Assembly: GCA_902793605.1 (NCBI GenBank)
Contig: CADBEB010000009.1
Coordinates: 25,149 to 89,148 of the forward strand
DNA: 64,000 nucleotides
Origin: an uncultured Eubacteriales bacterium
GTDB lineage: Bacteria; Bacillota; Clostridia; Christensenellales; Aristaeellaceae
Direction of reading: 5' to 3'
A model generated the notes under the pieces. That model saw only the letters and a list, made by a program, of their open reading frames with translations. It searched no databases and was not told the DNA's origin. A program made the position numbers and the translations under genes. Shown here one piece after another: positions 1 to 32,132 of this stretch. Position 1 is the stretch's first letter; every line of letters starts with the position of its first letter.

Positions 1-501
1 CATGTTGTCAGCCCGGAGGAAAAAGAAGAGGACGTAATTCAGGAAAAGCGCCGGGGTGCCGATCAGCAGGATGCGAAGATACTCCTGCGCGGCGGCAAAA
101 AGTGCGCTGTCCGACAGATCGGCGCCGAGCAAAGACAGCAGCTGCGGCAGAAACAGGTTTCCTGCCGCGGCGATCAGGATTCCGCTTATGGCGGCCACAC
201 AAACGACGCCGTGGAACCCGGAAAGCGCCTCCTTACGGCGGCCCTGCGCCATGCGTGAGGCGTAACGGACGCTGCCTCCGGTGCCCAGGGCGATCATGAT
301 GACGTTGAACACCTCGGCCACAGGCATAACCAGCGCAAGGGCAGCCAGGCCGACGGAACCGATGCTGTTTCCGAGCACAAAACTGTCCGCCACGTCGCCG
401 AACGACAGCGCGACGGCGGAAATCAGCGCCGGCAGAAACTGCCTGGAAAACATCCGCCTGGTGAAATAGCGGTCGATATCCCGGGTGTTTTCATTCTTCA
501 T
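1..501 (-). CDS. MATE-family multidrug/organic cation exporter, C-terminus outside window
   Basis: The frame is open from an ATG at 501 to the window edge, giving 167 N-terminal residues. The start reads MKNENTRDIDRYF, followed by hydrophobic helices typical of MATE exporters; visible landmarks are SFGDVADSFVLGNSIGS (the membrane-entry segment of helix 1) and the GTGGSVRYASRMAQG loop. MATE proteins export drugs or metabolites using Na+ or H+ gradients in the cytoplasmic membrane; the substrate cannot be told. The start codon overlaps the end of the upstream DUF2156 gene by 11 bases, so the two are probably translated together. About 280 further residues would be expected beyond position 1. 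Confidence 0.85.
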   Translation of the reverse strand, partial: MKNENTRDIDRYFTRRMFSRQFLPALISAVALSFGDVADSFVLGNSIGSVGLAALALVMPVAEVFNVIMIALGTGGSVRYASRMAQGRRKEALSGFHGVVCVAAISGILIAAAGNLFLPQLLSLLGADLSDSALFAAAQEYLRILLIGTPALFLNYVLFFFLRADNM

Positions 502-1360
502 ACGCACTGAACATTTCAATCCTTCCGATCGGGTTTTCAAGAAGCTTTGACTGGCGCAGGCCGGGAATGCCCAGGTCCTCCTCACCGTTAATGATCCTGT
601 ATTGCTCCGGCAGGGAGGATATCAGTTCCCGGCGGACGTAAAACTGAAGTCCTCTCTCCCGCTCCGGCGCTTTGGAAAAAGCGATGTCGTAGGAGCTCCC
701 GCTGAGCGGAAAGCCTGACGCCATGGCTGCCGCTTCGCCGTCCACATAAACGATCACGCCGCTCATATCAAGAACGCTGTAGTTTTCCAGCATCAGCACG
801 GACGTTTTGTGGTCGGCGGAAAAGTACTCGCTTTCGGAGCGGGGTTCCCATCGCGCCAGCATCTGGCCGGCGGCCTCCAGGTTTTCCGCCGCCAGCGCTT
901 CGGTCCGGAGATCGTGCTGCTTTTTCAGGTGGTTGATGCTCCACCGTATATCCTCATATTTGCGCCCCGGCATCCGGAGATACTCCTCCCGGTCGTACAG
1001 GTATTCCGACGCATCCTCCGCCGGGAGGATACGGAACCTTCCGGGCCAGCGCCCGTTCAGCAGCTCCTTGTCCTGTTCGCGCAGATAGAGGAAATGAACG
1101 GGGTGTTCCTCCCGCAAAAGCTCGTCCAGGAAAGCCAGGACTGCCTTTTCCTCGCCGCAGGGGAAAAACCATGTGTGGTCTCCCCAGTACGTGCTGCGTA
1201 TCGCATACATTTCCTCCCGCAGGCAGACGGACAGCCCGAGGTCCTTCTGCCACAGGAAAACGGATGGGAATGAATGGGACGCGCTTTCATGGCCGCAGGC
1301 CGTTCTGATCTGTGTGATCCGTTCCCGAAGGCCCGGCTGAATGGATTGTGTCGTAATCAT
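491..1360 (-). CDS. DUF2156 (phosphatidylglycerol lysyltransferase C-terminal-like) protein
   Basis: 289 residues starting MITTQSIQPG; the frame extends 37 codons further upstream, but that part is Arg-rich and unlike a protein start, so the ATG at 1360 is preferred. The body (for example WSINHLKKQHDLRTE, YSVLDMSGVIVYVDGEAAAMASGF, and near the end RIINGEEDLGIPGLRQSK) is the GNAT-fold DUF2156 pattern found in the soluble half of MprF-like aminoacyl-lipid synthases. There are no membrane helices, so it is not a flippase-containing MprF; many such stand-alone proteins are uncharacterised. It overlaps the following MATE gene by 11 bases. The family is clear, the acceptor substrate unknown. Confidence 0.8.
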   Translation of the reverse strand: MITTQSIQPGLRERITQIRTACGHESASHSFPSVFLWQKDLGLSVCLREEMYAIRSTYWGDHTWFFPCGEEKAVLAFLDELLREEHPVHFLYLREQDKELLNGRWPGRFRILPAEDASEYLYDREEYLRMPGRKYEDIRWSINHLKKQHDLRTEALAAENLEAAGQMLARWEPRSESEYFSADHKTSVLMLENYSVLDMSGVIVYVDGEAAAMASGFPLSGSSYDIAFSKAPERERGLQFYVRRELISSLPEQYRIINGEEDLGIPGLRQSKLLENPIGRIEMFSAYEE

Positions 1361-2124
1361 ATTATTCCCGGAGTTCAGAGTCCGCGAAGTCCGCCTCCTT
1401 CTGTCCTGCCGCCGGCAAAGCAGCCTGTGCGCCGCCTCCCGGGGCTGTGACAAATTCCTGGGATCCCTCACTTTCCTGGCACCGCATGGTCGCCCGCAGG
1501 TAAAGTACGAAACTGTTTCTACTATTGTACCACATCCTGCCCGTCAAAAAATGCCTCAGATAATTTTTTCATGCGCGGGCACAGTTTTCGGGCGTCTTCC
1601 TCCGGGCCGCAGGCCCTGCCGGCTTTGTTTTTCAGCCCTGCTCTACCCAAAAAGAAAAAAAGGTCGCTGTTTTGATATGTACCCTCTTTTCCGGGTTTTA
1701 CTGCAGATCCGTCCGGATCATATATACTGTCACCGTTTTCAGCGCTTCGACGCATCCTGCCATCTTCCCCCGGATTCTGTTCTTCTGTTTTATCAATAGG
1801 TTCTGGGTTTTTATTTTGCCTCGTGACCAGCTTGTGGTTCGTCTTTTTCTTCACTCATTCCTGTCAGTATCTCTATTTATTTTATTATACCAATCTGCTT
1901 TTATATATCCTTTCATATCATTGCTTTCGATATTGATTTCATGTCCGCGCAGCGGTTTTATCAGAAAAACGGTTTTTCGTCCGCATGGCTTCCCTGTCCC
2001 TTGTGAAATCCCTCCGCCGGGAGTATAATATCCGGGAAAGATGACTTGTCCGAGCGGACAGCCGTCGTACTGTTTGCCGCAAAAACGATATGAACGCAGA
2101 ATCCGTTCCGGAAGAGGTGTCCCG
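1361..2124. other. Intergenic region between divergent genes
   Basis: About 760 bases between the divergent DUF2156 and GGDEF-EAL genes. It contains the possible minus-strand -10 noted above and a GC-rich inverted repeat near 1603-1616 followed by a T-rich stretch. The open frames here (for example 1522-1854 minus) lack a recognisable domain or good ribosome binding site. No RNA gene was recognised. Confidence 0.5.
1524..1529 (-). promoter_or_regulatory. Probable extended -10 for the DUF2156-MATE pair
   Basis: Read on the minus strand, TGGTACAAT gives an extended -10 element about 160 bases before the start at 1360. No good -35 at the right spacing was seen, so this is a weak call. Confidence 0.35.
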
Positions 2125-6083: not shown

Positions 6084-9062
6084 ATGAAGCATCTGAAAAA
6101 AAGGTTGATCGGCAGCATTGTCGTCCTTCTGGTGTTCACCGGTGTCCTTGGGATCGCCCTTTTCCATACATATCAGGCCATCAATCAATCCAGATACAGC
6201 AAAGAAGGGCTGGCGGACATCCGGGCAATCCAGAAGACCGCTCACAAAGCACTGGATCTTTACCGGCAGGCCAGCGAGAGTGTAGACCATACATACAGGG
6301 CGAAGGCTGAGCTATCAGCGGTCACGTACCGGAACGATCCGGACAGCGAATTTGCCCGGAAACCTTCGCTGCTGCCGGGAGGCGCAGTGATTCGGGTCGA
6401 GGGTGGGAAGGTCACCGTTCCGGACGGTTTTCCCGGGGATTTGAAGCTGAACGCCGGCATGTTTGCAGAACTGTCCGGGATCGCCACAATTATCCCCGAT
6501 GAGGCAGCACGACAGAGCGGCGGCAGCCCGGCGGCGAACGGAGAAACCCCGGGGGACCGGATGACTTACTTCGTTTACTACAGCCAGATTGACGAACCGT
6601 TTTATTATATCGAATGGAAAGACCGGGACTTAATCAGGCAGGAGAAACTGAGCTGTTTCGACATCTATGAAAGCCTGGGCGGGATTGAGAAAATCTACAA
6701 CGCCAACTTTGTTATGTTTGATGTTTCGGGAATCGAAAAAGCGGGACCGAACTGCAAGTATTCCTCCCGTGATATGAAGCCCTACGTTGACGCAATGGAG
6801 AAAAAGGCCGCGGAACTGCTGAAAAGCAACGAGGCAGGATTCGATCCGGAAACGCCGCGTATGGTGGAGCTCGAGGGAGTCTCCTATCGCCTGTATGTTC
6901 AGCAGAACGACGCGCTGCAGGTGGTGATTGCATACCTGTTCCCGCTTGCGCAGAACAATTCGGCGGTGACGGAGCAGACAGTATTCCTGATGGCAGTGTT
7001 CCTGTTCATCTGCGCTGTATACCTGGTTTGGTTCCTTTCCGTGGTGTGGGTTGTCCGGAATCATTCGCTGAACGACAGGCAGAAGATCGAATTCAGGCCA
7101 AAGAGAATAAAGCGGGTTTCGAGAGCTTTTGTCATCCTCGGAGGCCTTGTGATCCTTGCGGCAGCGATCCTGGGCCAGTGTCTGTTCAGGCTCTACGACA
7201 AATATGAGCAGGTGGGCGATACGATCAACCTGCTGTATCAGAAAATTGATGAATATGAAATCCAGAAAAATGCCGCCAAGGTAACAAAGCGCAAAGCCTA
7301 TGAAGAGTGCGCCGAATCTATTGCTGAGCTGCTGGGTGATCATCCGCATCTGAGAACGCCCGAACAGCTTCAGGCATATTGCGATATTCTCGGAACAGAT
7401 TATCTGATGCTCTTTGACAAAGATGGCCGGGAAACCGTCACGAATTCCGAGTACAGAGGGCTTTCCCTGAGCACGACCCCGGCCAATTCCTCCCATGACT
7501 TCAGGCGGCTGCTTGCCGGGGTTCCCGTGATCTCCCATGACGTGGAGCCCGAGCCGCTGAGCGGGATTGAACGCATGATGGTCGGGGCCAGGATCACCAT
7601 GAAGGACGAAGCAGAGGGACCTTATCAGGCGATCCTGATGGCGGTTCCGGTCAGCCGGATTGCCGAAAGCGACCCGCAGACCGCCAGCGATATCATGACG
7701 GAGATGGCGACGGATTCCATGCTGATCTTCTCCATGGATCCGCAGAGCCAGAAGATTACAGCGTCCAGCAGGAAGGAAATGATCGGGGAAGACGCGGTCC
7801 GCGTAGGAATTTCGCCGTCCTGCATACGCGACGATCTGATGGACTTCGTGATGATCAACGGAGTCCAGTATTACTGCGAAGCGCAGAAGGGGAACGACGG
7901 GCAACTCTACTTCTGCGCGGCGGAAAAGGACGGTATGTACAGCAATGTAAAGCTGTATGCGGTGATCTGCTGCGGAATTTCCATGCTGTTTATGTTGATG
8001 ATAGCGCTTTACTCGGTGAAAGGATACGAGAAGGACTTCATGAGCAGTCCAGACAGCGGCGACAAGCTGAGGAATATGACAAACGAGATCGATGTTGCGA
8101 ACGGCAGACGGAAATGGTCCGTGGATCCGTCGAAAAGATGGCTGCCGGCCTTCACGGATTACGGGAACCGGACGCCGATCCGCAACGCCCTGATTACAGT
8201 GCAGGGCATCTTCGCATTCGGCGCGCTGATGACGACGGTGCTGCTGGTTGCCCCGTCCTCAGGCAAGCGGATGCCGCTTTTTGCCTATATCTTTTCAGAC
8301 CAGTGGGCGAGGGGGGTGAACCTGTTTGCCGTCACCAGCATCCTGATTCTGCTGCTGGAGGTCGTGGCAGTCCTGATCCTGCTGAAACTGATCGTCCAGG
8401 TCATCAGCATGATATGCGGCACCAGGGGAGAGACGATCTGCAGGCTGATCCTGAACCTGATGAATTACATCGCAGTCATTGTATTCCTGTTCTTCGCTCT
8501 GCAGTATATCGGCATTGACGTGACAACGCTGCTGGCTTCTCTCGGCCTGCTGACATTTGCCATCTCCCTGGGCGCGAAAGACCTGGTAACGGACATGCTT
8601 GCCGGCATCTCGATCATCTTTGAGGGCAATTTCCAGGTCGGCGATATTATCGAAGTCAACGGCTACTGGGGAAGAGTGCTGGAGATCGGCGTTCAGACGA
8701 CAAAGCTGGAAGGCCTGGGCGGCAACATCAAGATCATCGGAAACCGGGATATCAACAACGTGGTGAACAAGACGCGGATGAACTCCTGGTACGCGCTTGA
8801 GATCGGCGTTCCGTCCGAGCAGATCAAAGAGGTTGAGGAAATGCTGCTGAAAGGGTTTCCGGACATTGGAGCGACGATTCCGGAGATTGTCAGCGGGCCA
8901 TATTACAAGGGCATTGAGTCTTTCACATCCTCCGCCGGCAAGGGTGTTTTAAGAATCCTGATTACTGCCGAGTGCAACGAGAACGACTACCGCCATGTGA
9001 AGCACAAGCTCAACCACGCCATTGCCGTGCTTTTCGATGAACACAATATTCCGATCATGTAA
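6084..9062 (+). CDS. Very large MscS-type mechanosensitive channel with two extracytoplasmic sensor regions
   Basis: 992 residues. The last about 190 are a clear MscS module: pore-lining helix rich in Gly/Ala (LLASLGLLTFAISLGAKD), then the beta domain (GNFQVGDIIEVNGYWGRV) and C-terminal alpha/beta domain. Before it lie a TM at about 8-27, an extracytoplasmic region (30-295), two TMs (about 300-324 and 347-367), a second extracytoplasmic region (370-620) with Cache-like appearance, a TM (624-646) and more helices (702-800). Classical MscS has 286 residues, so this is a sensor-equipped channel, and gating by ligand as well as tension is plausible. It has its own promoter at 5983 and converges on the glycan cassette with only 11 bases between the two. 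Confidence 0.85.
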   Translation: MKHLKKRLIGSIVVLLVFTGVLGIALFHTYQAINQSRYSKEGLADIRAIQKTAHKALDLYRQASESVDHTYRAKAELSAVTYRNDPDSEFARKPSLLPGGAVIRVEGGKVTVPDGFPGDLKLNAGMFAELSGIATIIPDEAARQSGGSPAANGETPGDRMTYFVYYSQIDEPFYYIEWKDRDLIRQEKLSCFDIYESLGGIEKIYNANFVMFDVSGIEKAGPNCKYSSRDMKPYVDAMEKKAAELLKSNEAGFDPETPRMVELEGVSYRLYVQQNDALQVVIAYLFPLAQNNSAVTEQTVFLMAVFLFICAVYLVWFLSVVWVVRNHSLNDRQKIEFRPKRIKRVSRAFVILGGLVILAAAILGQCLFRLYDKYEQVGDTINLLYQKIDEYEIQKNAAKVTKRKAYEECAESIAELLGDHPHLRTPEQLQAYCDILGTDYLMLFDKDGRETVTNSEYRGLSLSTTPANSSHDFRRLLAGVPVISHDVEPEPLSGIERMMVGARITMKDEAEGPYQAILMAVPVSRIAESDPQTASDIMTEMATDSMLIFSMDPQSQKITASSRKEMIGEDAVRVGISPSCIRDDLMDFVMINGVQYYCEAQKGNDGQLYFCAAEKDGMYSNVKLYAVICCGISMLFMLMIALYSVKGYEKDFMSSPDSGDKLRNMTNEIDVANGRRKWSVDPSKRWLPAFTDYGNRTPIRNALITVQGIFAFGALMTTVLLVAPSSGKRMPLFAYIFSDQWARGVNLFAVTSILILLLEVVAVLILLKLIVQVISMICGTRGETICRLILNLMNYIAVIVFLFFALQYIGIDVTTLLASLGLLTFAISLGAKDLVTDMLAGISIIFEGNFQVGDIIEVNGYWGRVLEIGVQTTKLEGLGGNIKIIGNRDINNVVNKTRMNSWYALEIGVPSEQIKEVEEMLLKGFPDIGATIPEIVSGPYYKGIESFTSSAGKGVLRILITAECNENDYRHVKHKLNHAIAVLFDEHNIPIM

Positions 9063-9073
9063 TCAGGAAGAAA

Positions 9074-12000
9074 TTACAAATAACAATCCATTGTGTGAGA
9101 GACCGCTTTCGAGGCAGCGCAGGTCTGCCTCAGAAGGGCGGTCTTTCTCAGCTCTGTCAGGATAACGTCCCTGCCTGTCGGATTCTCAAACCAGGATTCC
9201 GGCCGGGTATTGGGGCCATAGGCCGGGAACCACACGACTTCCCAGTTATCTCCGGCCATAATCTCCTCCAGGATGAGCCTTGCCCGCGGAATGTGGAACC
9301 CCCCGGTCAGAAAACCGACCCGAAGGCTTCCTCTTTTCCGGTCTGACAGCGTTCCGTCCGCCTGAAACTTCCGGAGGATCTGTGCTGCGAACTCCAGGTT
9401 CTGCCTGGTATAGCGGGCCCTGTTCTCGAGATGGATATCTGACGCCGCCACGCCATGCTCTTTCAGGCGGTCGTAGAGAAACTCAGCTTCCGAGCAGCTT
9501 TGGTCCCAGATCAGGTTCGCGCCGCTGACGATATACTTCATACCGGGGTTTCTTTTTCCGATCTCAACGGCCGCATCCGCCTTGTAGGCGCAGTTTCGGC
9601 TTCCCAGAATTACCAGAACGTCGACCGGAGCGCTGCTGTCATAGGGCCCGCCGAAGACCATCCGGTTGATCTCCGGCAGGTTCTCATCCCGCTCCCCGGG
9701 ATACTCGGCAAAGCGGTCGATGGTTTTCTCAGTTTCACGGAGAAGATCGTAGGCACTGAAATCCATCCGTTCCTCCTGCGAAGTACCCTTCGACAGAGCG
9801 AAGAAACAGCAGATCTTCTCCTCATGCAGCCGCATGACCCGGCGGAAAAAATGCGGGAAGCTTTTCGTCGACTGGGACAGCCGGTCCCGCTGTATATAAC
9901 GGAGCATCACCAGAGAGCTTGTGATCACCGCGGGATGGAGATCCTGTCCTTCCAGCAGGCGCAGATAGCCGTAATTGAACAGGCGATCCTCGCCGAAATC
10001 GATGCCCTCCTCAAAGCGGAGACGCGCCTGCTCAATGATGCTGCGGCAGTAGAATTTGTTACAGTTGGAATAGACCAGAAGATTCCGGCTCCGGATATAA
10101 TCGTCCGCAAACTCGGAGATATTGTCATAGGTTCGGTCCGGAACAGTCCAGAATTCGCTGTTCCCTTCCAGGTGGATACGTTCGATGCCCAGGATATAGA
10201 GACCCGCCTGCTTTTCCAGCAGTGGCAGGCTCTTTTGCAGGAATCCCTGTTCCAGGCAGTCGTCGCAATCCAGAAAAGTGATATACTTTCCGCGGGCAAG
10301 ATCCAGCCCGTAATTTCTGGCTCCCGAGACTCCGGCGTGATCCCGGTACGCGATCCGAAGATTTTCCTTCCTGCCCTCGTACCGTTTCAGGATCTCCGCC
10401 GACGCGTCCGACGAGCCGTCATCCACAACGATCAGTTCGCAGTCTTCCGTAAGCTGCAGCAAAACGTTCTCCAGCGTCTGGGTCAGGAAGGCCTCGCAGT
10501 TGTAGGCAGGCAGAATGACGGACAGCCGCGGGGAGTCTTTTTTCATCCCGCAGCAGCTGCCGGCATCCGGCGCCAGCGCCCGCCAGATCCGCGCCGCCTC
10601 CTGCGAGGCAAGCTGATCCAAGGCAAAAAAATCCTCCTCCGAAACGCAGAGCCGTTCACCGTCTTCGCTGTATGGCAAAAGCCCGAGCTTTTCCGCATCC
10701 GGCTGGGGAAACCGTTCTGTGCTCCGCTCCGTTTGGAGCAGAATGAGGTTCCCCTCCTCAAGATACCGGATGCTGCAGTGCTTTTTTACGACAGGCCGGG
10801 GTGTAATGAACTTCCGGCCGAAAAACTCCACGCCGTGCCTGTGCAGCGCCGACTGCAGCAGGATCAGATAGAGCCTTTTGACATGAGGAAGGGAACTCCC
10901 GACCCCGACGAAAGGTTCGGAAACAAAGACCGTCTCTGTATCGTAACGGACGCCCTCCATCCCGAAGGCAAGCAGCTCTTCCGTTTCCGCCCGGATCCCG
11001 ATTCCCGCGGTGCATTCCTTTATCTGCTGCAGGGAATATATGAAAGCGGAGATATTGTTGGCCTCCACGATAACCGGTCCCTTATCCGTAACGGCGACGT
11101 CCCAGCCGATGTAGCGCATTTCAGGAATGAAAAGCGCCTCTTTCCGGCAGCATTCCAAGCATGCCGAAATCCCCGGCAGCTTTCTGCCGCGCCGGAACAG
11201 GTAGCCGGTATCGCGATGCCTGTCCGCTGCCTGCCAAGGGCCTCCGGGTTCCTGCTGATATGCCTGGATAATGCTCCCGTCCTCGGAAAGGAGGACACGG
11301 TACCTGACCGAGGAAGCGGATATGTCTGTCACCGCCCCGCTTCCTCCGACCGAAAGCACAACGGGCAGAAAAATCCTCACACCGCTGCCGCTGCGCACGG
11401 TATGGATGCGGACCGTGTTGAGGCTGTCCGGATAGATCGCCTGGTACGCGCCGTGCTGGCGGATATAAGGCTCCAGGATATCGGCGCCGTCAGAGCGGAT
11501 CTGCCCGGCCGGGTCCTTCCCGTTGTCCGTGTAGATCCGAAAGCCCTCTCCGGCAGAGGAGTTTCTTTTTCCCACAATCTTTCCCCAGGTCTGCAGGAAC
11601 TGCCGGATTTCCTCATCGGACGAAGCAGCGGGAACCAGAGCCGGCCTGCGCATGAGTTCCCGAAGGCCCGGACGCAGGAACATATTGATTTTATCCATCA
11701 GAAAGGCCTTCATGCTCATATCGTTGAGATCCATCGCGCGGTCCAGATACTCTTCCATGGAGATTCGGGTTTCCGGCGCGCAACCCTCCGAGCCTGGATG
11801 ACCCGCAGGCTGACTGCAGGCCGCGCCGGGAGCAGCCGGCTGGTCAACCTTCTTCACCTCCCGCAGCACCTCCGCGATAACGCTTTCCCTGTGCTCCTGA
11901 TCCAGCGGCAGGATTTCCTCGGCCAGTCCGGTGTTTTCCAGAACAATCCCGGCGTGAAACCGCATCGCCTTTTCCCGGATCCCGGCGTCTCCGGTATACA

Positions 12001-13513
12001 CGTAGAAGATGAGATCCCCGTCAGGGAAAAAGACATTCTCATCCCTGAGCCTTCTTTTTCTTATCCTGATCGGGACCAACCGCGCGAGCTGCTCTTCGCG
12101 GTTCTCCCTGTCAAAGCAGAGATCGCTCCGGGAATCCAGGAAAATGACGATATCCTCCTCCCCGAGCGCGTCCAGGAAGCCGCTTACGGTAAGTGCGTTC
12201 GCCTGTTTCTCCGGCTGCTCCGGCAAGCCGGCTCCGGGAAGGTCTGCCGTTTCCCGTGCAGTATCCGGCTCCGGCGTTTTGACGCCCTTCACTTCCACTC
12301 TGCGGTACGCAAACGAAAGCGCCTTTTCCTTTGTCTGAAAATAATCGCTTTTAAAAGCGCGGTCATCGATGAGCCAAACCTGGCGGCCGGCTGTTTCCTT
12401 TTTCAGCGCGGTCTCATGGACAAAGGGGAGCGTGACCTTCAAAGAATACTCGGCGAGCGCTTCAAGAAGGGTAACGTCCACGCCGAAGGTATGGACGGGG
12501 CGCAGATCCGTCTCTTCCAGCTCCGAAAGCAGTTTCACGGCAAAATAGTACCGGTCGCACGCCCGGAAGGTGTTCGGAAAATCATAGCCGCAGACAATAT
12601 TCTTCCTGAAGATGCCCCGAAGATTGCGGACAGAGGAGGAGGAAACCGTGAAGGAAGTATCCGGAATCCGGTCCAGCAGAACTGTCATCAGCTCCGCGGG
12701 GAACCTCCCGCGAATCGTTCTCGCCTCCGGGAAGAAGCGGGCGTAATCCACGGTATCGTCCGGGTGAGACTTGAAGATCAGAGAACGGTCCCGGAGGAAA
12801 AAGTCGGCGCAGACCTGGTAAATGGCGATCTGATCCTCCAGCGTCGTGGTATACAGATTTGAGAACTGCTGCGTAAAAACCAGCACCGCGTCTTCCGGAA
12901 TGCCCCGGATGGGCTCCAGCCGGTAAAAACGCATGACGGCGCAGATTGTCTCCGGGTTGAGGTGCGTGATTTCTGATGCCGGATCAAAATCCTTCCATTT
13001 CGGATCGCCGGAGATAAAACTCTGGGCGGAGAAGTTGCAGATGGCGTCACGGATATATTCGTTTCTTCCGTCCAGAAGCCCGTAGGTCTGGGCAATATCC
13101 GCTATAACTGGTGTGACGTCCCTGATGATGTCGTACAGTATTTTCGGTTTGGAAAGCATCCCTCCGCCGTCTTCAAACATGTGGAAGGAAACGCCGTTCG
13201 AGATCAGGTACAGGGAAAAACTGTAGTAAGCAGCGGCAACGTAAATATGTTCGAACTCCGTGATCCCGTAAGGCACACTGTCCCTGTACGCTTGCTCCGT
13301 CTCTTCCAGGATAGTCTCCGGGTCGTTGGAAACCGATCGGTAAGGGAACAACAGGACTTCATCGAAAAACGCCTCCAGTTCCCTGTAGTCATGATATTTC
13401 TTCGCTGAGAAATCCGCCAGCAGCAGGATACAGCGCTCCTCCGCATGAACCCTTTCCCGGTGAATGATCGCTTCCAGTACCTGGTACATCGTTGCGCAAT
13501 GGTATAAAATCAA
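9074..13513 (-). CDS. Four-domain glycan assembly protein: polysialyltransferase-like, ATP-grasp, GT2, DUF218
   Basis: 1479 residues from a TTG at 13513 preceded by GGAGGAGG. Residues 1-345 resemble GT52/polysialyltransferase-type enzymes (LVFTQQFSN, IFKSHPDDTVDY, TSFTVSSSSVRN), which use CMP-activated acidic sugars. Residues 345-580 are unassigned. Residues 585-850 match sugar-transfer-associated ATP-grasp (KRNSSAGEGFRIY, LNTVRIHTV, GWDVAVTDKGPVIVEANN). Residues 850-990 are unassigned. Residues 996-1240 are a GT2 glycosyltransferase (SVILPAYNCEAF, VVDDGSSDAS, FLDCDD). Residues 1297-1465 are a DUF218/YdcF-like domain (DVLVILGSRN, LENRARYTRQNL, FLTGGFHIPRA). No TM segment is evident, so it should act in the cytoplasm. 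It is last in a four-gene run with a CMP-sugar synthetase, a deacetylase and a ligase. I know of no such four-part arrangement. Confidence 0.82.
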   Translation of the reverse strand: MILYHCATMYQVLEAIIHRERVHAEERCILLLADFSAKKYHDYRELEAFFDEVLLFPYRSVSNDPETILEETEQAYRDSVPYGITEFEHIYVAAAYYSFSLYLISNGVSFHMFEDGGGMLSKPKILYDIIRDVTPVIADIAQTYGLLDGRNEYIRDAICNFSAQSFISGDPKWKDFDPASEITHLNPETICAVMRFYRLEPIRGIPEDAVLVFTQQFSNLYTTTLEDQIAIYQVCADFFLRDRSLIFKSHPDDTVDYARFFPEARTIRGRFPAELMTVLLDRIPDTSFTVSSSSVRNLRGIFRKNIVCGYDFPNTFRACDRYYFAVKLLSELEETDLRPVHTFGVDVTLLEALAEYSLKVTLPFVHETALKKETAGRQVWLIDDRAFKSDYFQTKEKALSFAYRRVEVKGVKTPEPDTARETADLPGAGLPEQPEKQANALTVSGFLDALGEEDIVIFLDSRSDLCFDRENREEQLARLVPIRIRKRRLRDENVFFPDGDLIFYVYTGDAGIREKAMRFHAGIVLENTGLAEEILPLDQEHRESVIAEVLREVKKVDQPAAPGAACSQPAGHPGSEGCAPETRISMEEYLDRAMDLNDMSMKAFLMDKINMFLRPGLRELMRRPALVPAASSDEEIRQFLQTWGKIVGKRNSSAGEGFRIYTDNGKDPAGQIRSDGADILEPYIRQHGAYQAIYPDSLNTVRIHTVRSGSGVRIFLPVVLSVGGSGAVTDISASSVRYRVLLSEDGSIIQAYQQEPGGPWQAADRHRDTGYLFRRGRKLPGISACLECCRKEALFIPEMRYIGWDVAVTDKGPVIVEANNISAFIYSLQQIKECTAGIGIRAETEELLAFGMEGVRYDTETVFVSEPFVGVGSSLPHVKRLYLILLQSALHRHGVEFFGRKFITPRPVVKKHCSIRYLEEGNLILLQTERSTERFPQPDAEKLGLLPYSEDGERLCVSEEDFFALDQLASQEAARIWRALAPDAGSCCGMKKDSPRLSVILPAYNCEAFLTQTLENVLLQLTEDCELIVVDDGSSDASAEILKRYEGRKENLRIAYRDHAGVSGARNYGLDLARGKYITFLDCDDCLEQGFLQKSLPLLEKQAGLYILGIERIHLEGNSEFWTVPDRTYDNISEFADDYIRSRNLLVYSNCNKFYCRSIIEQARLRFEEGIDFGEDRLFNYGYLRLLEGQDLHPAVITSSLVMLRYIQRDRLSQSTKSFPHFFRRVMRLHEEKICCFFALSKGTSQEERMDFSAYDLLRETEKTIDRFAEYPGERDENLPEINRMVFGGPYDSSAPVDVLVILGSRNCAYKADAAVEIGKRNPGMKYIVSGANLIWDQSCSEAEFLYDRLKEHGVAASDIHLENRARYTRQNLEFAAQILRKFQADGTLSDRKRGSLRVGFLTGGFHIPRARLILEEIMAGDNWEVVWFPAYGPNTRPESWFENPTGRDVILTELRKTALLRQTCAASKAVSHTMDCYL

Positions 13514-13542
13514 ACCGGTCTTCCTCCTCCGGAACGCTGCTT

Positions 13543-14949
13543 CTATCGCTTCCCGCCGTCCCTGTCCGGGACCGGGAGCTTTCTCTTCGCGATCTTCCCG
13601 TTCGCCTCTCGGGGAATGCTGTCTACCTTCATAAAACAGGCCGGGATCATATAGGATGGAAGCCGCCCGGCGGCAAGCCTTTCAGCCTCCTCGACGGATC
13701 TCTTCGGCTCCTGCGCATAGTACGCGCAGAGATAGGGGTGCCCCTGGTCAAAGATGCCTCTGACCCCAACCCAGTCGACCTCCAGGAGCTCCCGGAAGAC
13801 CGATTCAATCTCAGCGGGTTCGATGCGGTTTCCCCGGATTTTGATCATTTCATCGGCTCTGCCGATGATCACGATACTCCCGTCCGCCTGGATCGATCCT
13901 CGGTCTCCCGAGCGGATATAACCATTCAGCCGGACCTGCTCCGTGAGTTCAGGCAAGCCGATATAGCCCCGGAAATATGGCGCCCGATAACAGAGATTTC
14001 CCGTTTCTCCGTCCGGAAGCACGTTTCCGCCGTCGTCCATGATACAGATCTCCGATTTATGCTCCCCGGTCCTGCCGACCGGCGTGACATCATATTCCCG
14101 GTCAATCAGAAACGTCGAGATATTGAAGCCGGATTCCGACTGACCGTAGCCGCAGAAGATCTCCACCCGGTCGCTGAAGATCTTCCTTGCCGGTTCTCCT
14201 CCGACAACGATCTTGGTCAGGGAAGCGGGGATCCGCTTCAGATGCTTCAGCATGGAGGGAACGATAAAGAGGTTCGTGAGCTGCAGGTTCTCGATGTATT
14301 CAGGTAAACGGTCCGGATCCCTGACGACGTCCTTCGGGACCACGGCCAGCGTTTGCGCGTTATAGAGAATCGGCGGTATGATGAGCATGCTGACCACAAA
14401 ATAGAGCGGAGTGATCAGGGCAAACCTGCCGTCGATCACCGGGCGTTCTCCGCAGAAATGCAGCCTGATGCACATTTCCAGGGTGCCAAATTCATGCATC
14501 ACGCCCTTGGGATTTCCCGTCGTCCCGGAGGTATAGATCAGATAGGCGAGATCGTGAAGGGACGTTTCCTCATATCCCTCCAGGGTGCTGCCGGCCATGA
14601 TCCCGGAAAACAGCGCCTCGTCGATCTTCAGCACGCAGCCCGCGTCCTGCTGAATGTACTCCATCCTTTCAGGTTCATAGTCCGCCTCCAGCATGACGGC
14701 CGCGGCGCCCGCGCGCCAGATACCAATCAGGGCGACGACCGGGTCGTTTCCCCGCGGGAGTGCGATCATCACCGTGTTTTCCTTCCCGATTCCTTTCTGT
14801 CTGAGAAAACGGTAAACACGGCCGGAGCATTCCCACAGCCTGGCATAGGTCATGCTTTTTCCGGCTTCCGCCGAGATCAGCGCGACGTCATCCGGGTGAC
14901 AGGCGCAGTTTTTCTCCAGCTTTTCAATAAAACGCAAATCTGTACTCAT
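13543..14949 (-). CDS. Stand-alone adenylating enzyme (acyl/aryl-AMP ligase, ANL superfamily)
   Basis: 468 residues with the ANL motif series: LIYTSGTTGNPKGVMH (phosphate loop), FCGYGQSESG (A5), SGDRGS (A7), GRADEMIKIRGNRIEPAEIE split around the hinge, and the catalytic Lys in REANGKIAKRKL. It activates a carboxylate as an acyl-adenylate. No carrier-protein domain is fused and none lies nearby. In the substrate-binding segment (TPLYFVVSM) the position occupied by Asp in amino-acid-activating relatives such as DltA is Val, so an alpha-amino acid is unlikely; this rests on my alignment by eye. Its ATG overlaps the preceding deacetylase stop as ATGA (14946-14949), and the large glycan protein starts 29 bases downstream. 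Confidence 0.85.
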   Translation of the reverse strand: MSTDLRFIEKLEKNCACHPDDVALISAEAGKSMTYARLWECSGRVYRFLRQKGIGKENTVMIALPRGNDPVVALIGIWRAGAAAVMLEADYEPERMEYIQQDAGCVLKIDEALFSGIMAGSTLEGYEETSLHDLAYLIYTSGTTGNPKGVMHEFGTLEMCIRLHFCGERPVIDGRFALITPLYFVVSMLIIPPILYNAQTLAVVPKDVVRDPDRLPEYIENLQLTNLFIVPSMLKHLKRIPASLTKIVVGGEPARKIFSDRVEIFCGYGQSESGFNISTFLIDREYDVTPVGRTGEHKSEICIMDDGGNVLPDGETGNLCYRAPYFRGYIGLPELTEQVRLNGYIRSGDRGSIQADGSIVIIGRADEMIKIRGNRIEPAEIESVFRELLEVDWVGVRGIFDQGHPYLCAYYAQEPKRSVEEAERLAAGRLPSYMIPACFMKVDSIPREANGKIAKRKLPVPDRDGGKR

Positions 14950-16055
14950 TTTCTCAGCAAATCTCCATACGCGCCTTCACTATCCTCGACAGCGATAACG
15001 TCGGCGACTTTTTCAACGACCCTTCTCTCCGCCGGGGAGACAGAGCCGCTGACCGCATATCTAAAACCCTGATCCTTCAGATAGCGGAAGGACTTTTGAA
15101 CCAGCAGCGTGTTGATCCCGAGGCCTCGGGCTTCAGGAAGGGTGCCGCCCGGCCCGGCATAATCCGGTGCAATGGCTCCCACGCAGCCGAAGGCGAGAAT
15201 CCGGCCCTCGCGTACCGCCGTGTAACAGACCCCGTTCATCATCGCAGCGAGGGCTTCGTCGGCCCAGGACTGCGCGAAGTTGTCTCTGATAAACTCGTAA
15301 ACCTGCGTGAAGTCGGGCGGCATCACCCGTTTGACCCGGATCCCCTTCGCCGCCAGGGAAGCCTCCAGCGAGGAGTCCTCACGCAGGGTATAAAGCTTTG
15401 CGATCAGATCCGGATTATAGCCGATCTTTCGCGCGTCCACCTTCAGATAGCACTCGGCGTATTTGCATTTCGGGTCCGAGAGCATCTGTGTGCCGCGGAG
15501 AAGATTCAGCGTCAGATTGATCTCCTCCTGCTCGCTCTGATCCGCGTGAAAACGGATCAGCCGCCGCTTTTCTTCCAGAAGCCCCGTAATGTCGATGCAG
15601 TGCGTCGGCCGGTAAAACGGCGTAACGATCTCATACATAAAGCATTCCGCCTGCGCCTTCTGGCGTCGGATTGCCTTGCAGCACATCAGCGCCGCGGCCT
15701 TGTGATCCGGATGAGGACTCTCATGCCAGGGAAGAAAGATCTTCGTGTACGGAGTAAAATCGATTCGGTCGGCGGCATCCCCATGCTTCGTGAGGGTCGT
15801 GTCCTCGATACCGAACCATTCCCAGGAACGCGGGTTCACCGCCTCCATTTCGGTTTTGAACTGAAGCCGGCGGATCTTTGCCTCTTCCGCGATGCTGATC
15901 TCCGGGTTCCCGTGGCTTCCGTCTGTGAGCACGAAGACGTCGGTCCGGTCGGGCGCAAGGATCAGGGGGGCAGCCGCGCCGAGGCATTCGTCGTCAGGAT
16001 GCGGCGCGATCACGGCAATCCGGTCATTTTTTTCAAAGACGATTCTCTCTCTCAT
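14946..16055 (-). CDS. PIG-L deacetylase fused to GNAT acyltransferase
   Basis: 369 residues. Residues 1-205 are a PIG-L/LmbE zinc deacetylase: APHPDDECLGA carries the first metal ligands and catalytic Asp, and SPHPDHKAA the second metal-binding His. Residues about 230-360 are a GNAT domain (VYEFIRDNFAQSWADEALAAMM, then EARGLGINTLLVQKSF as the CoA loop). PIG-L enzymes remove N-acetyl groups from aminosugars, and GNATs add acyl groups to amines, so one chain may exchange an N-acyl group. The gene is second in the cassette: it starts 36 bases after the CMP-sugar synthetase stop and overlaps the adenylating ligase by 4 bases. The start follows TGGAGAAT. Confidence 0.87.
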   Translation of the reverse strand: MRERIVFEKNDRIAVIAPHPDDECLGAAAPLILAPDRTDVFVLTDGSHGNPEISIAEEAKIRRLQFKTEMEAVNPRSWEWFGIEDTTLTKHGDAADRIDFTPYTKIFLPWHESPHPDHKAAALMCCKAIRRQKAQAECFMYEIVTPFYRPTHCIDITGLLEEKRRLIRFHADQSEQEEINLTLNLLRGTQMLSDPKCKYAECYLKVDARKIGYNPDLIAKLYTLREDSSLEASLAAKGIRVKRVMPPDFTQVYEFIRDNFAQSWADEALAAMMNGVCYTAVREGRILAFGCVGAIAPDYAGPGGTLPEARGLGINTLLVQKSFRYLKDQGFRYAVSGSVSPAERRVVEKVADVIAVEDSEGAYGDLLRK

Positions 16056-16091
16056 AGCATTCTCCAGGCGATTTTTTATTCTTCAGTTGGA

Positions 16092-16829
16092 TCACCTGCG
16101 ATCCAACTGATTGCCTATTATGGATCTGACAATTTCAAGATCCTTGGGCGTGTCTACAGATACAGTTTTGCAGGTCACTTCCACCATCCTCACAGGTATC
16201 TCCTGATCAATGAATCTAATCAAATCACATCCTTCAAGTATTTCCAGTTTGCTTTTAGGGGCTTCATTGTACAGTGTTAATGCTTTTGACGAATAAGCCG
16301 CTATACCCACGAACTTCATATAGTCAAAATCCAGTCCTCCCTTTGGATAAGGAAGCGGGCTTCTTGTTGTGATAATCAGATTGCCTTTTGTGTTTGTAAC
16401 TACTTTAAGATTTGTAACGTCTATGACTTCCGGAGCTGACTTTATGATTGTCATAGCGTTCACACAGTCCATACCGGTTCTCTTTGCTTCTTCGGTAACG
16501 GCATCAATGGCGTCCGGTTCGATTAAAGGCTCGTCACCGCCGATAAATACATAGTAATCATAACGCATCTTCGTCGCAACCTCATACATTCTCGAGGTGG
16601 GCGAATCATGATCCGGAGACGTCATGATATATTTCATGCCGTATTTCTTGCACGCTTCAGCTATACGCTGATCGTCTGTCGCAACGATAAGATCATCCAA
16701 TGAGCTTGCCTTTAACGCTTGCTGATATACCCACCAGATCATAGGTTTGCCGCATAGATCCGCAAGCGGCTTGCCCGGAAACCTGCTTGACTGATATCTT
16801 GAAGGTATGATTCCTAAAAACGTTTTCAT
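16092..16829 (-). CDS. KdsB-like CMP-sugar synthetase (cytidylyltransferase)
   Basis: 245 residues, the usual KdsB length. The nucleotide-binding start is IIPSRYQSSRFPGKPLADL, followed by WVYQQALKA, VATDDQRIAEA, FIGGDEPLIEP and SVDTPKDLEIV, all landmarks of 3-deoxy-manno-octulosonate cytidylyltransferase and its relatives. It couples CTP to a keto-sugar acid to give CMP-sugar. No Kdo, lipid A or other LPS genes are present, and Bacillota lack LPS, so the product is more likely a CMP-activated acidic sugar for a capsule or wall glycan, which fits the polysialyltransferase-like domain in the same operon. The coding sequence is visibly AT-richer than its neighbours, which suggests transfer. Start follows AGGAGGAAAG. 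Confidence 0.88.
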   Translation of the reverse strand: MKTFLGIIPSRYQSSRFPGKPLADLCGKPMIWWVYQQALKASSLDDLIVATDDQRIAEACKKYGMKYIMTSPDHDSPTSRMYEVATKMRYDYYVFIGGDEPLIEPDAIDAVTEEAKRTGMDCVNAMTIIKSAPEVIDVTNLKVVTNTKGNLIITTRSPLPYPKGGLDFDYMKFVGIAAYSSKALTLYNEAPKSKLEILEGCDLIRFIDQEIPVRMVEVTCKTVSVDTPKDLEIVRSIIGNQLDRR

Positions 16830-17322
16830 ACAATTCTTTCCTCCTGTTCACCGGTGGGTTGACGTTTTATCCGATTCTGACAGACAGCATCCTGTGCGTC
16901 AGGGCTTCCCTCCATCATACGGATTCTCCGCTGTCCAGGATAAACTCCCGCATAAAGGCCGCCCCTGCAACTTCATCAATGCTTTTCATGTCGCAAACGG
17001 AAAAAATGTCATGTTTTATTTATTTCATAAATAAATATAAGCTCTGTAATTGATTTAGTCAACTGTGACCATGACAGCTCCTCGCGAAAAGCTATGCCAA
17101 CTGCGCCTGCGCCCGACTTTCATCACTCCGTCTGTTTTCCGATATACCGCCCTGTTATATACGATTTTCGCGGAAAGCAACCAGGGACAGATCGGAATGT
17201 CGAATTGACATAATAAGTGGTAAGAGATTATTATGCAGGTGAGAGAGTCCGGAACAGATAGCTGAATAAAGAGACAAGTCATAACTCATATGACTGTCAT
17301 ATGTTTTCACAAGGAGGCAAAC
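16830..17322. other. Intergenic region upstream of the glycan cassette and the PAP2 gene
   Basis: 493 bases. It holds a 24-codon open frame on the minus strand (16915-16989, MKSIDEVAGAAFMREF...), which could be a leader peptide or gene remnant; an AT-rich inverted repeat (about 17013-17036) of two 9-base arms around TTC that could be an operator; and the PAP2 promoter. No cassette promoter could be fixed with confidence. Confidence 0.45.
17205..17234 (+). promoter_or_regulatory. Promoter of the PAP2 gene
   Basis: Perfect TTGACA (17205-17210), 18-base spacer and TATTAT (17229-17234), about 90 bases before the start at 17323. Confidence 0.7.
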
Positions 17323-18834: not shown

Positions 18835-18990
18835 GTTGTTTCTCCTGAACTCCTGTTTTCTGATCCTCTTTCATATACTACGGAAGAACAGTGAAGTCAA
18901 TCCCGATGCTGCCGGCAGCCTGCAGGGAATATGGGCATGACCGGCGAAAGGATTAGTATTCAGAAACTGAAAAAACACGGGAGGCCAGCT

Positions 18991-19869
18991 ATGAATAGGC
19001 ATCTGAGAAGACATGCACGGCAATGGATATTGTTCTGTATCATGATTACTTTGTTTACGCCGTTTTCTGCGTTCACTGTCCGGGCGGAGCATATCCGGAC
19101 AGTTGTTGAGGAACTGGTGGTTTATTACGGCACCTACGGCGCCGAGGCGGAACAGAAAACTTCGGAATTGCTGGATGATCTGCACAAAGCCGATCCGGCG
19201 GCGGAAGCGAAGTGGAAAAAGATCATGAACCTCTGGAAAACCGTGAATACCGATCCGGAGATTCATGAAGGTATTCTTCCCGACGGTCTGCCGGAGACGG
19301 ATGAGCTGTGTCTGGTGGTTCTTGGCTTCCAGCTGAATCCGGACGGCAGCATGAAGGACGAGCTGATTGAAAGGCTGAAAGTCGCAAAAGCCAGCGCGGA
19401 GAAGTACCCCCATGCCCTGATCGTCTGCACCGGCGGCGGAACCGCGGCAGAGAATCCGGACGTTACGGAAGCCGGCAGAATGGCTGACTGGCTGATTGCA
19501 ACCGGCATCGATGCGCAGCGGGTGATCGTGGAAGACCAGTCGCTGACCACCGCACAAAATGCGATCTTCACCTGGAAGATCCTGACGGAACAGTATCCGC
19601 AGGTGAAACAGCTGGCAATTGTTTCCAGTGACTACCACATTGCGACCGGTACCCTGCTCTTTAACGCGGAGGCAATCCTGCAGGCAGAGGACGCCGGAAA
19701 GGAAATCATGCCGGTGGTTTCCAACGCCGCCTGGCATGCGCCTTCCGGAACCCTGTCTCCCATGTTCCAGGCCGGCGCGCTGATCGAACTGTCCGGAGAT
19801 AAAGAAACCGCTTTCGAGATTTATTACGAAACCTATGACATCCATGAGCTTCCTCCGCTGAATCCCTGA
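18991..19869 (+). CDS. Secreted or membrane-anchored DUF218 (YdcF-like) protein
   Basis: 292 residues from an ATG at 18991 preceded by GGGAGG. An N-terminal hydrophobic segment (WILFCIMITLFTPFSAF) followed by VRAEH looks like a cleavable signal peptide. After about 75 linker residues comes the DUF218 core: CLVVLGFQLNPDGS, IVCTGGGTAAEN, EAGRMADWLIATGI, VEDQSLTTAQNAIF and IVSSDYHIATG. DUF218 includes the vancomycin-resistance protein SanA and YdcF, which binds S-adenosylmethionine; the activity is otherwise unknown. The same domain forms the C-terminus of the large glycan protein at 9074-13513. Followed by a strong terminator. Confidence 0.85.
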   Translation: MNRHLRRHARQWILFCIMITLFTPFSAFTVRAEHIRTVVEELVVYYGTYGAEAEQKTSELLDDLHKADPAAEAKWKKIMNLWKTVNTDPEIHEGILPDGLPETDELCLVVLGFQLNPDGSMKDELIERLKVAKASAEKYPHALIVCTGGGTAAENPDVTEAGRMADWLIATGIDAQRVIVEDQSLTTAQNAIFTWKILTEQYPQVKQLAIVSSDYHIATGTLLFNAEAILQAEDAGKEIMPVVSNAAWHAPSGTLSPMFQAGALIELSGDKETAFEIYYETYDIHELPPLNP

Positions 19870-32077: not shown

Positions 32078-32132
32078 CCCGGTATCGGAACATTGCGTTG
32101 TGCGTCAGAAACAAAGAAGCCGGAGGAGCATT

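Follow-up and report, generated by a model that had tools for sequence, protein, structure and literature searches.

We describe a compact cassette of four genes in a window of 64,000 nucleotides (the whole stretch of DNA that was analysed) from an uncultured Eubacteriales bacterium of the Clostridia. In our judgement, which stands at about an even balance, the four genes act as one system, which would activate an acidic sugar with cytidine monophosphate (CMP), probably replace an N-acetyl group by a different acyl group, and attach the sugar to a glycan precursor in the cytosol by means of a polysialyltransferase-like domain of the GT-B fold. The CMP-sugar core of this interpretation is well supported. 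The window's genome (G000) is a 3.25-Mb assembly in 78 contigs and is 96% complete. The genes and the region in front of them are as follows:

16092-16829, minus strand: KdsB-like cytidylyltransferase, 245 amino acids (CTP_transf_3, E 8e-41; KpsU structure 1gq9, E 3e-49)
14946-16055, minus strand: PIG-L deacetylase fused to a GNAT acyltransferase, 369 amino acids (PIG-L, E 4e-10, Pfam)
13543-14949, minus strand: AMP-binding adenylating ligase of the nonribosomal peptide synthetase (NRPS) type, stand-alone, 468 amino acids (AMP-binding, E 4e-58, Pfam)
9074-13513, minus strand: large multidomain protein, 1479 amino acids, TTG start with ggaggagga upstream
16830-17214, minus strand: region upstream of the operon, with a sigma70-like match at 17062-17034

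The cassette and its genes

A preliminary description of this DNA had reported four genes running in one direction with gaps or overlaps of -4 to 36 bp. The open reading frames (ORFs) bear this out: they share one direction on the minus strand, spanning 16829 to 9074, and are separated by 36, -4 and 29 bp. The promoter scan upstream of the operon returned four sigma70-like matches against 5.1 expected from shuffles, which is no excess. All four genes are under purifying selection. The ratio of nonsynonymous to synonymous substitution (dN/dS) between two species is 0.25 for the large protein, 0.13 for the ligase, 0.06 for the PIG-L and GNAT fusion and 0.03 for the KdsB-like gene, and because of this range (0.03-0.25) the genes look real and used. 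The GC content at third codon positions is 0.45 in the KdsB-like gene and 0.70-0.72 in the other three, and the cassette was therefore probably assembled from different sources. A defence system was considered and rejected, as there was no PADLOC match at E 0.001.

A polysialyltransferase-like domain linked to cytidylyltransferases

The large protein, described earlier as having four domains, is better counted in five parts, of which the ATPgrasp_ST, GT2 and DUF218 domains are confirmed by Pfam:

12479-13513, minus strand (residues 1-345): polysialyltransferase/GT52-like GT-B domain, with FEDGGG at 113-118, KSHP at 248-251 and SSS at 291-293
11834-12478, minus strand (residues 346-560): second domain, uncharacterised, without a Pfam match, weakly shared with a relative in genome G050
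11051-11605, minus strand (residues 637-821): ATPgrasp_ST, PF14397, E 8e-16, with an EANN motif
10028-10522, minus strand (residues 998-1162): GT2 glycosyltransferase, PF00535, E 6e-33
9194-9622, minus strand (residues 1298-1440): DUF218, PF02698, E 2e-16

The first domain was found in seven class genomes, the window's included, and every one of them has a cytidylyltransferase no more than 3 kb away from a copy. The partner is of the KdsB type in five (G000, G702, G1038, G905 and G954) and PseF-like in two (G988 and G868), where it overlaps the transferase gene by a few bases (PF02348 was scored for G988). The KdsB type is itself rare, occurring in 10 of 391 class genomes, 5 of 308 family genomes and 1 of 151 genomes in the order sample (the window's own), with the window's genome counted throughout. 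An overlap of five between the first domain and the KdsB type has a probability of 7e-8, of 2e-6 without the window's genome, and of 6e-5 when one genome per genus is also imposed. A further pair of KdsB-type and first-domain genes adjoins an FkbH-like protein in G050; this pair is not independent, because G050 was found through KdsB. At that locus (L162, 10-1788, minus strand) the FkbH-like protein may point to a related system in which an acyl group is bound to a carrier. The second domain of the large protein matched L162 with a BLASTP E of 3e-5 in one pairwise comparison.

In a scan of the full-length protein, Pfam gives no match at E up to 1 to roughly the first 600 residues. When residues 1-345 were scanned alone, A-2_8-polyST (PF07388) appeared at E 0.039, with 13.9 bits against a cut-off of 23.3, and PF07922 gave no row. 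Relatives, motifs and a model are therefore the basis for calling it a glycosyltransferase. The model passed the fold check suggested earlier, with a predicted GT-B fold like that of solved polysialyl- and sialyltransferases, at middling confidence and with GT-B enzymes using uridine diphosphate (UDP) sugars close behind; an AlphaFold2 model of residues 1-980 (pLDDT 46.7) was not used. The family of the first domain also gives a profile match to a polyST-like family. The D/E-D/E-G and HP motifs are defined for bacterial sialyl- and polysialyltransferases in the excerpt of PMC2169525 used here. Both motif types occur in 20/20 close homologues of the first domain, and across 12 rows of its family KxHP is present in 12/12 and strict D/E-D/E-G in 5/12. 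Against solved structures, the profile of the first-domain family gave nothing better than E 0.19 and that of the polyST-like neighbour family no match at E up to 10. A viral structure library gave only weak matches, the best (E 3.5e-5) being a phage protein of uncharacterised function. Since it lies below the Pfam cut-offs, the domain may work like a GT38/GT52 enzyme and yet not be classed as a member; it is probably a new branch of polysialyltransferase-like GT-B enzymes. The preliminary suggestion that the transferase depends on a CMP-sugar is thus supported by the polyST-like model and motifs together with the 7/7 linkage to cytidylyltransferases.

Twenty homologues of the large protein were found (one a 99% copy), in a search in which forms shorter than those found could not have appeared. 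Seventeen are 937-997 amino acids long and end after the ATP-grasp part, three carry GT2-DUF218, and EANN is present in the ATP-grasp part of all 20.

A plausible N-acyl exchange by the fusion protein and the ligase

The PIG-L domain scores 40.7 bits (Pfam cut-off 28.2) and keeps PHPDDE and HPDH. Among the 120 homologues listed of 245 found, 114 contain both PHPDDE and H[PS]D[HY]. Its nearest solved relatives are diacetylchitobiose deacetylases or similar enzymes (best E 1.5e-6, 3wl4). The GNAT domain lies exactly at the Pfam cut-off in the full-length fusion (20.7 bits) and reaches 22.9 bits when the C-terminal 155 amino acids are scanned alone. The GNAT part also exists alone, as 14 of the 16 family genomes matching the fusion align only from residue ~209 onward.

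The ligase has no carrier domain, and scores 190 bits against a cut-off of 317 for AA-adenyl-dom. In NRPS adenylation domains the Asp of the A4 motif holds the amine of alpha-amino acids. In the ligase, aligned to both LgrA domains, this Asp is replaced by Val, and an acid without an alpha-amino group is therefore the likelier substrate. The genome holds two paralogues of the ligase: a 978-amino-acid NRPS-like protein with adenylation, carrier and condensation domains (window 32100-35036, plus strand), and the beginning of a 995-amino-acid ORF on contig C23 (L180, 8807-11794). It is plausible from these sequences that the fusion and the carrier-less ligase carry out an N-acyl exchange, in which a substrate would be deacetylated, an acyl-coenzyme A (acyl-CoA) made, and the amine re-acylated.

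A block shared between two species

A second species of the same genus (G029) carries the same block at a different genomic place:

8936-17214, no strand assigned: block common to the window and G029, 97.75% nucleotide identity over 8,280 columns, taking in the final ~127 bp of the window's MscS gene

From its presence at two different places we infer that the block has moved as a unit. The background identity between the two genomes is 80.1% for the MscS gene and 77.6% for an AlkZ-like gene, only these two genes having been compared. The G029 copy, whose left end is a contig end, retains the end (~127 bp) of an MscS gene of the window type and lies some 40 kb from G029's own full-length MscS. 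These sequences are best read as a recent transfer, with either a window-like donor or a common source behind it. Repeat-like sequence begins where the shared block stops in G029 (L102, 8380-8520), and may mark where an insertion element ends.

Beyond these genomes, close homologues (69-86%) of the PIG-L and GNAT fusion and of the large protein occur in metagenomes. Three of the homologues listed are named, and come from a Clostridia bacterium, Lachnospiraceae and Oscillospiraceae. Entries P0018 and P0135 share one source and one longest contig (11149), which is a hint of linkage and no proof. A scan of genome contigs returned PIG-L relatives and no second cassette copy among the best 80 matches, and one Deltaproteobacteria contig (L080) holds a weak pair (PIG-L 24%, KdsB 28%). 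Neither the DNA of the KdsB region nor the protein sequence of the first domain was matched in the plasmid collection, and viral contigs held no first-domain relative. When the large protein and the KdsB-like protein were compared against phage families, the former matched only through its GT2 region and the latter not at all.

The four genes could instead be two unrelated modules, a CMP-sugar transferase pair and an acylation or natural-product pair (the fusion and the ligase) with another target. Only the KdsB-like and large-protein pair has been seen linked in other genomes, the KdsB gene differs in base composition, and the two ligase paralogues, in the adenylation-carrier-condensation protein and the 995-amino-acid ORF, are in keeping with such an origin. 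However, the ligase and deacetylase genes sit between the two members of the CMP-sugar pair, at distances of -4 to 36 bp, and belong to the same shared block, and all four genes are under purifying selection. We regard this explanation as unlikely.

The sugar that would be activated

The excerpt of PMC3149649 used here describes two strictly conserved Asp residues that bind Mg in CMP-Kdo synthetase, Kdo being 3-deoxy-manno-octulosonate. The KdsB-like protein keeps the GDEP and VDTP motifs in alignment, and its CTP_transf_3 domain has both Asp; this pair would fall in GDEP and VDTP by a mapping that is ours and goes beyond the source. Its closest solved structure is KpsU, annotated as a 3-deoxy-manno-octulosonate cytidylyltransferase. 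Among NCBIfam models it misses both kdsB equivalogs (TIGR00466, 136.8 of 155.2 bits; NF003948, 143.7 of 281 bits). Of the Kdo-cytidylyltransferase subfamilies it passes NF003952 (231.7 bits, cut-off 193), narrowly misses NF009905 (248.5 of 255) and misses NF003950 (178.2 of 234). On the sugar side it has GGDEP, KFVG and CDLIR, where KpsU and a KdsA-linked enzyme have QGDEP, KH(V/I)G and LEQLR, residues that we take to contact Kdo in Kdo-type enzymes. Among the 120 nearest of 6896 proteins the first motif position is Gly in 106, Ser in 14 and Gln in none; at the second position 116 have Phe and four do not match the pattern. In a tree, KpsU and the KdsA-linked enzyme form a group separate from the window's protein with support of 83/98, which is below the tree's own 95/80 mark, with the bootstrap not settled and long branches.

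Several sources of the sugar were sought and rejected. No Kdo 8-phosphate synthase (KdsA) was found in G000, the two PF00793 matches both being read as 3-deoxy-arabino-heptulosonate 7-phosphate (DAHP) synthases from their sequence and, in one case, from a prephenate-dehydrogenase-like neighbour as well, and not scored against a KdsA model. A sialic-type sugar from NeuB was set aside, as the single PF03102 match is a DAHP synthase-like gene on contig C15. The reverse reaction of NanA was set aside as well, as the sole DHDPS-family gene found reads as DapA-like, in front of a DapB-like gene. The HMGL-like aldolase of the relatives described below has no match in G000 or G029 at E 1e-6. With none of these four found, the substrate would therefore be scavenged, come from an unrecognised enzyme, or not be an ulosonic acid.

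Alternatively, the sugar activated and placed on a glycan could be Kdo, obtained by scavenging or from an unrecognised enzyme, the motif changes being drift. This would suit KpsU as the nearest solved structure and the passing of NF003952. It would also suit a QXXXD motif, given in the excerpt of PMC12887879 used here as the nucleophile motif of retaining Kdo transferases (GT99/GT107/GT140), 34 residues before the HP His in KrkA. The first domain has QVCAD at Q233-D237, as do 20/20 close homologues and L162, though it lies 13 and not 34 residues before the HP His; QXXXD is missing at that place in 8 of the 12 family rows. Against Kdo stand the three changed motifs (the first in 120/120 and the second Phe in 116/120 of the listed homologues), the failure to find KdsA in the genome, and the separate tree group, with its limits. 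We hold Kdo to be unlikely; the activated sugar is probably an acidic sugar other than Kdo.

Nine of the ten KdsB-type genes in the class adjoin a carbon-carbon bond enzyme, which is an HMGL-like aldolase in seven (six called by profile, and that of G954 by 60% identity to that of G702), KdsA in one and a DHDPS-family enzyme in one. The sole gene without such a neighbour is the window's. Eight loci that pair a KdsB-type gene with an HMGL-like aldolase were noted:

L145 4327-6647, L146 13579-15917, L147 13928-16191 and L148 4317-6571: KdsB-type gene beside an HMGL-like aldolase of ~510-540 amino acids
L161 9404-12591 (one ORF between), L175 9997-12323, L176 10100-12449 and L177 10024-12403: KdsB-type gene and HMGL-like aldolase of the same size range, adjacent except in L161

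These HMGL-like proteins resemble 4-hydroxy-2-oxovalerate aldolase, and a HAD_2- or KdsC-type phosphatase is present in six of the eight loci. The arrangement suggests that a CMP-ulosonic acid may be made there without KdsA, and a literature search found no description of a KdsB-aldolase operon. The same aldolase type stands with a PseF-like cytidylyltransferase and two first-domain-family transferases at L149 (7521-9799) and L150 (8995-11228).

Proposed mechanism and the evidence against it

In the single-cassette reading, the KdsB-like enzyme would couple cytidine triphosphate to a 2-keto acid sugar, and PIG-L would strip either the sugar or its acceptor of an N-acetyl group. The ligase would convert an acid without an alpha-amino group to acyl-AMP and then acyl-CoA, with which the fused GNAT would acylate the amine exposed by PIG-L. 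In the large protein, the first domain is predicted to transfer the CMP-sugar, GT2 to add a second sugar, and ATPgrasp_ST to ligate a further group.

Several points weigh against this reading. The main gap is that no source of the acidic sugar was recognised in the cassette or in G000. No contig with all four genes was read outside the two genomes. PIG-L relatives at L006-L010 (47-60% best-segment identity) stand without other cassette genes in the DNA examined, and the two of them that were read both lack GNAT. Lastly, no exporter gene is among the four; in hydropathy, three of the cassette proteins score well below the PAP2 control (2.33) and the ligase reaches 2.13 over a single core stretch, so that export would need other genes. 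The preliminary interpretation is supported in part. The co-occurrence check suggested earlier gave a divided result: the transferase and cytidylyltransferase genes are found together, but the full set was seen in only 2 of 308 family genomes. As to the capsule or wall polymer proposed there, the L145 relative adjoins ABC genes resembling teichoic acid or galactan exporters, and the cassette itself has no exporter gene. A first domain that works as an ordinary UDP-sugar GT-B enzyme, its cytidylyltransferase link being due to shared membership of glycan islands, is very improbable, given the KxHP motif, the polyST-like profile match and the 7/7 linkage to partners whose KdsB type is rare (10/391).

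Comparison with known systems

The first domain resembles the GT38/GT52 polysialyl- and lipooligosaccharide sialyltransferases (CAZy) in its GT-B-like model, D/E-D/E-G and KxHP motifs and cytidylyltransferase link, but it falls under the Pfam cut-offs, is fused to ATPgrasp_ST, GT2 and DUF218, and comes from a genome in which no sialic acid synthase was found. The KdsB-like protein shares with KdsB/KpsU CMP-Kdo synthetases the fold family, GDEP and VDTP, and its length of 245 amino acids, and differs in the three sugar-side motifs and in the lack of a Kdo 8-phosphate synthase among the genes found. In the excerpt of PMC7439481 used here, the Bacillus subtilis sps legionaminic acid pathway is a CMP-nonulosonate route with the cytidylyltransferase spsF and acetyltransferase spsD. 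It is like the cassette in pairing these activities in a Gram-positive, and unlike it in its UDP-linked precursors and its own sugar-making steps, none of which is recognised in the cassette. The fusion shares PIG-L de-N-acetylation with the diacetylchitobiose deacetylase 3wl4. The mycothiol and bacillithiol deacetylases likewise de-N-acetylate through PIG-L, with acyl or ligase steps following. Unlike all of these, the PIG-L of the cassette is fused to GNAT and stands beside a CMP-sugar enzyme. The preliminary remark that no described system has this set agrees with our literature search, which found none.

Neighbouring genes

Three other genes of the window were noted:

6084-9062, plus strand: 992-amino-acid MscS-type channel with a long N-terminal part, 11 bp from the cassette; matched at E 1e-60 in 5 of 41 genus genomes, the window's included
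18931-19869, plus strand: second DUF218 protein near the cassette, the large protein likewise ending in DUF218
491-1471, minus strand: protein with an LPG_synthase_C domain (phosphatidylglycerol lysyltransferase, C-terminal)

Significance

A broader picture, which we offer tentatively and consider somewhat unlikely to hold as a whole, joins these observations. A glycan would be built from a CMP-activated acidic sugar without a known supply pathway, its N-acyl group swapped by a deacetylase-acyltransferase that an orphaned NRPS adenylation enzyme supplies, on a self-contained surface-remodelling island that travels between Clostridia species. The transferase would found a new Clostridia CMP-sugar family; elsewhere, members of this family would have as a partner a pyruvate-aldolase route that leads to 3-deoxy-ulosonic acids and bypasses KdsA and NeuB. 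If our main interpretation is right, a donor type could be assigned to a clade of Clostridia transferases, and the KdsB-like subfamily would need a new name and substrate. The aldolase-KdsB operon of the relatives would be a new way to acidic surface sugars, and a whole CMP-sugar decoration step could pass between species as one small block.
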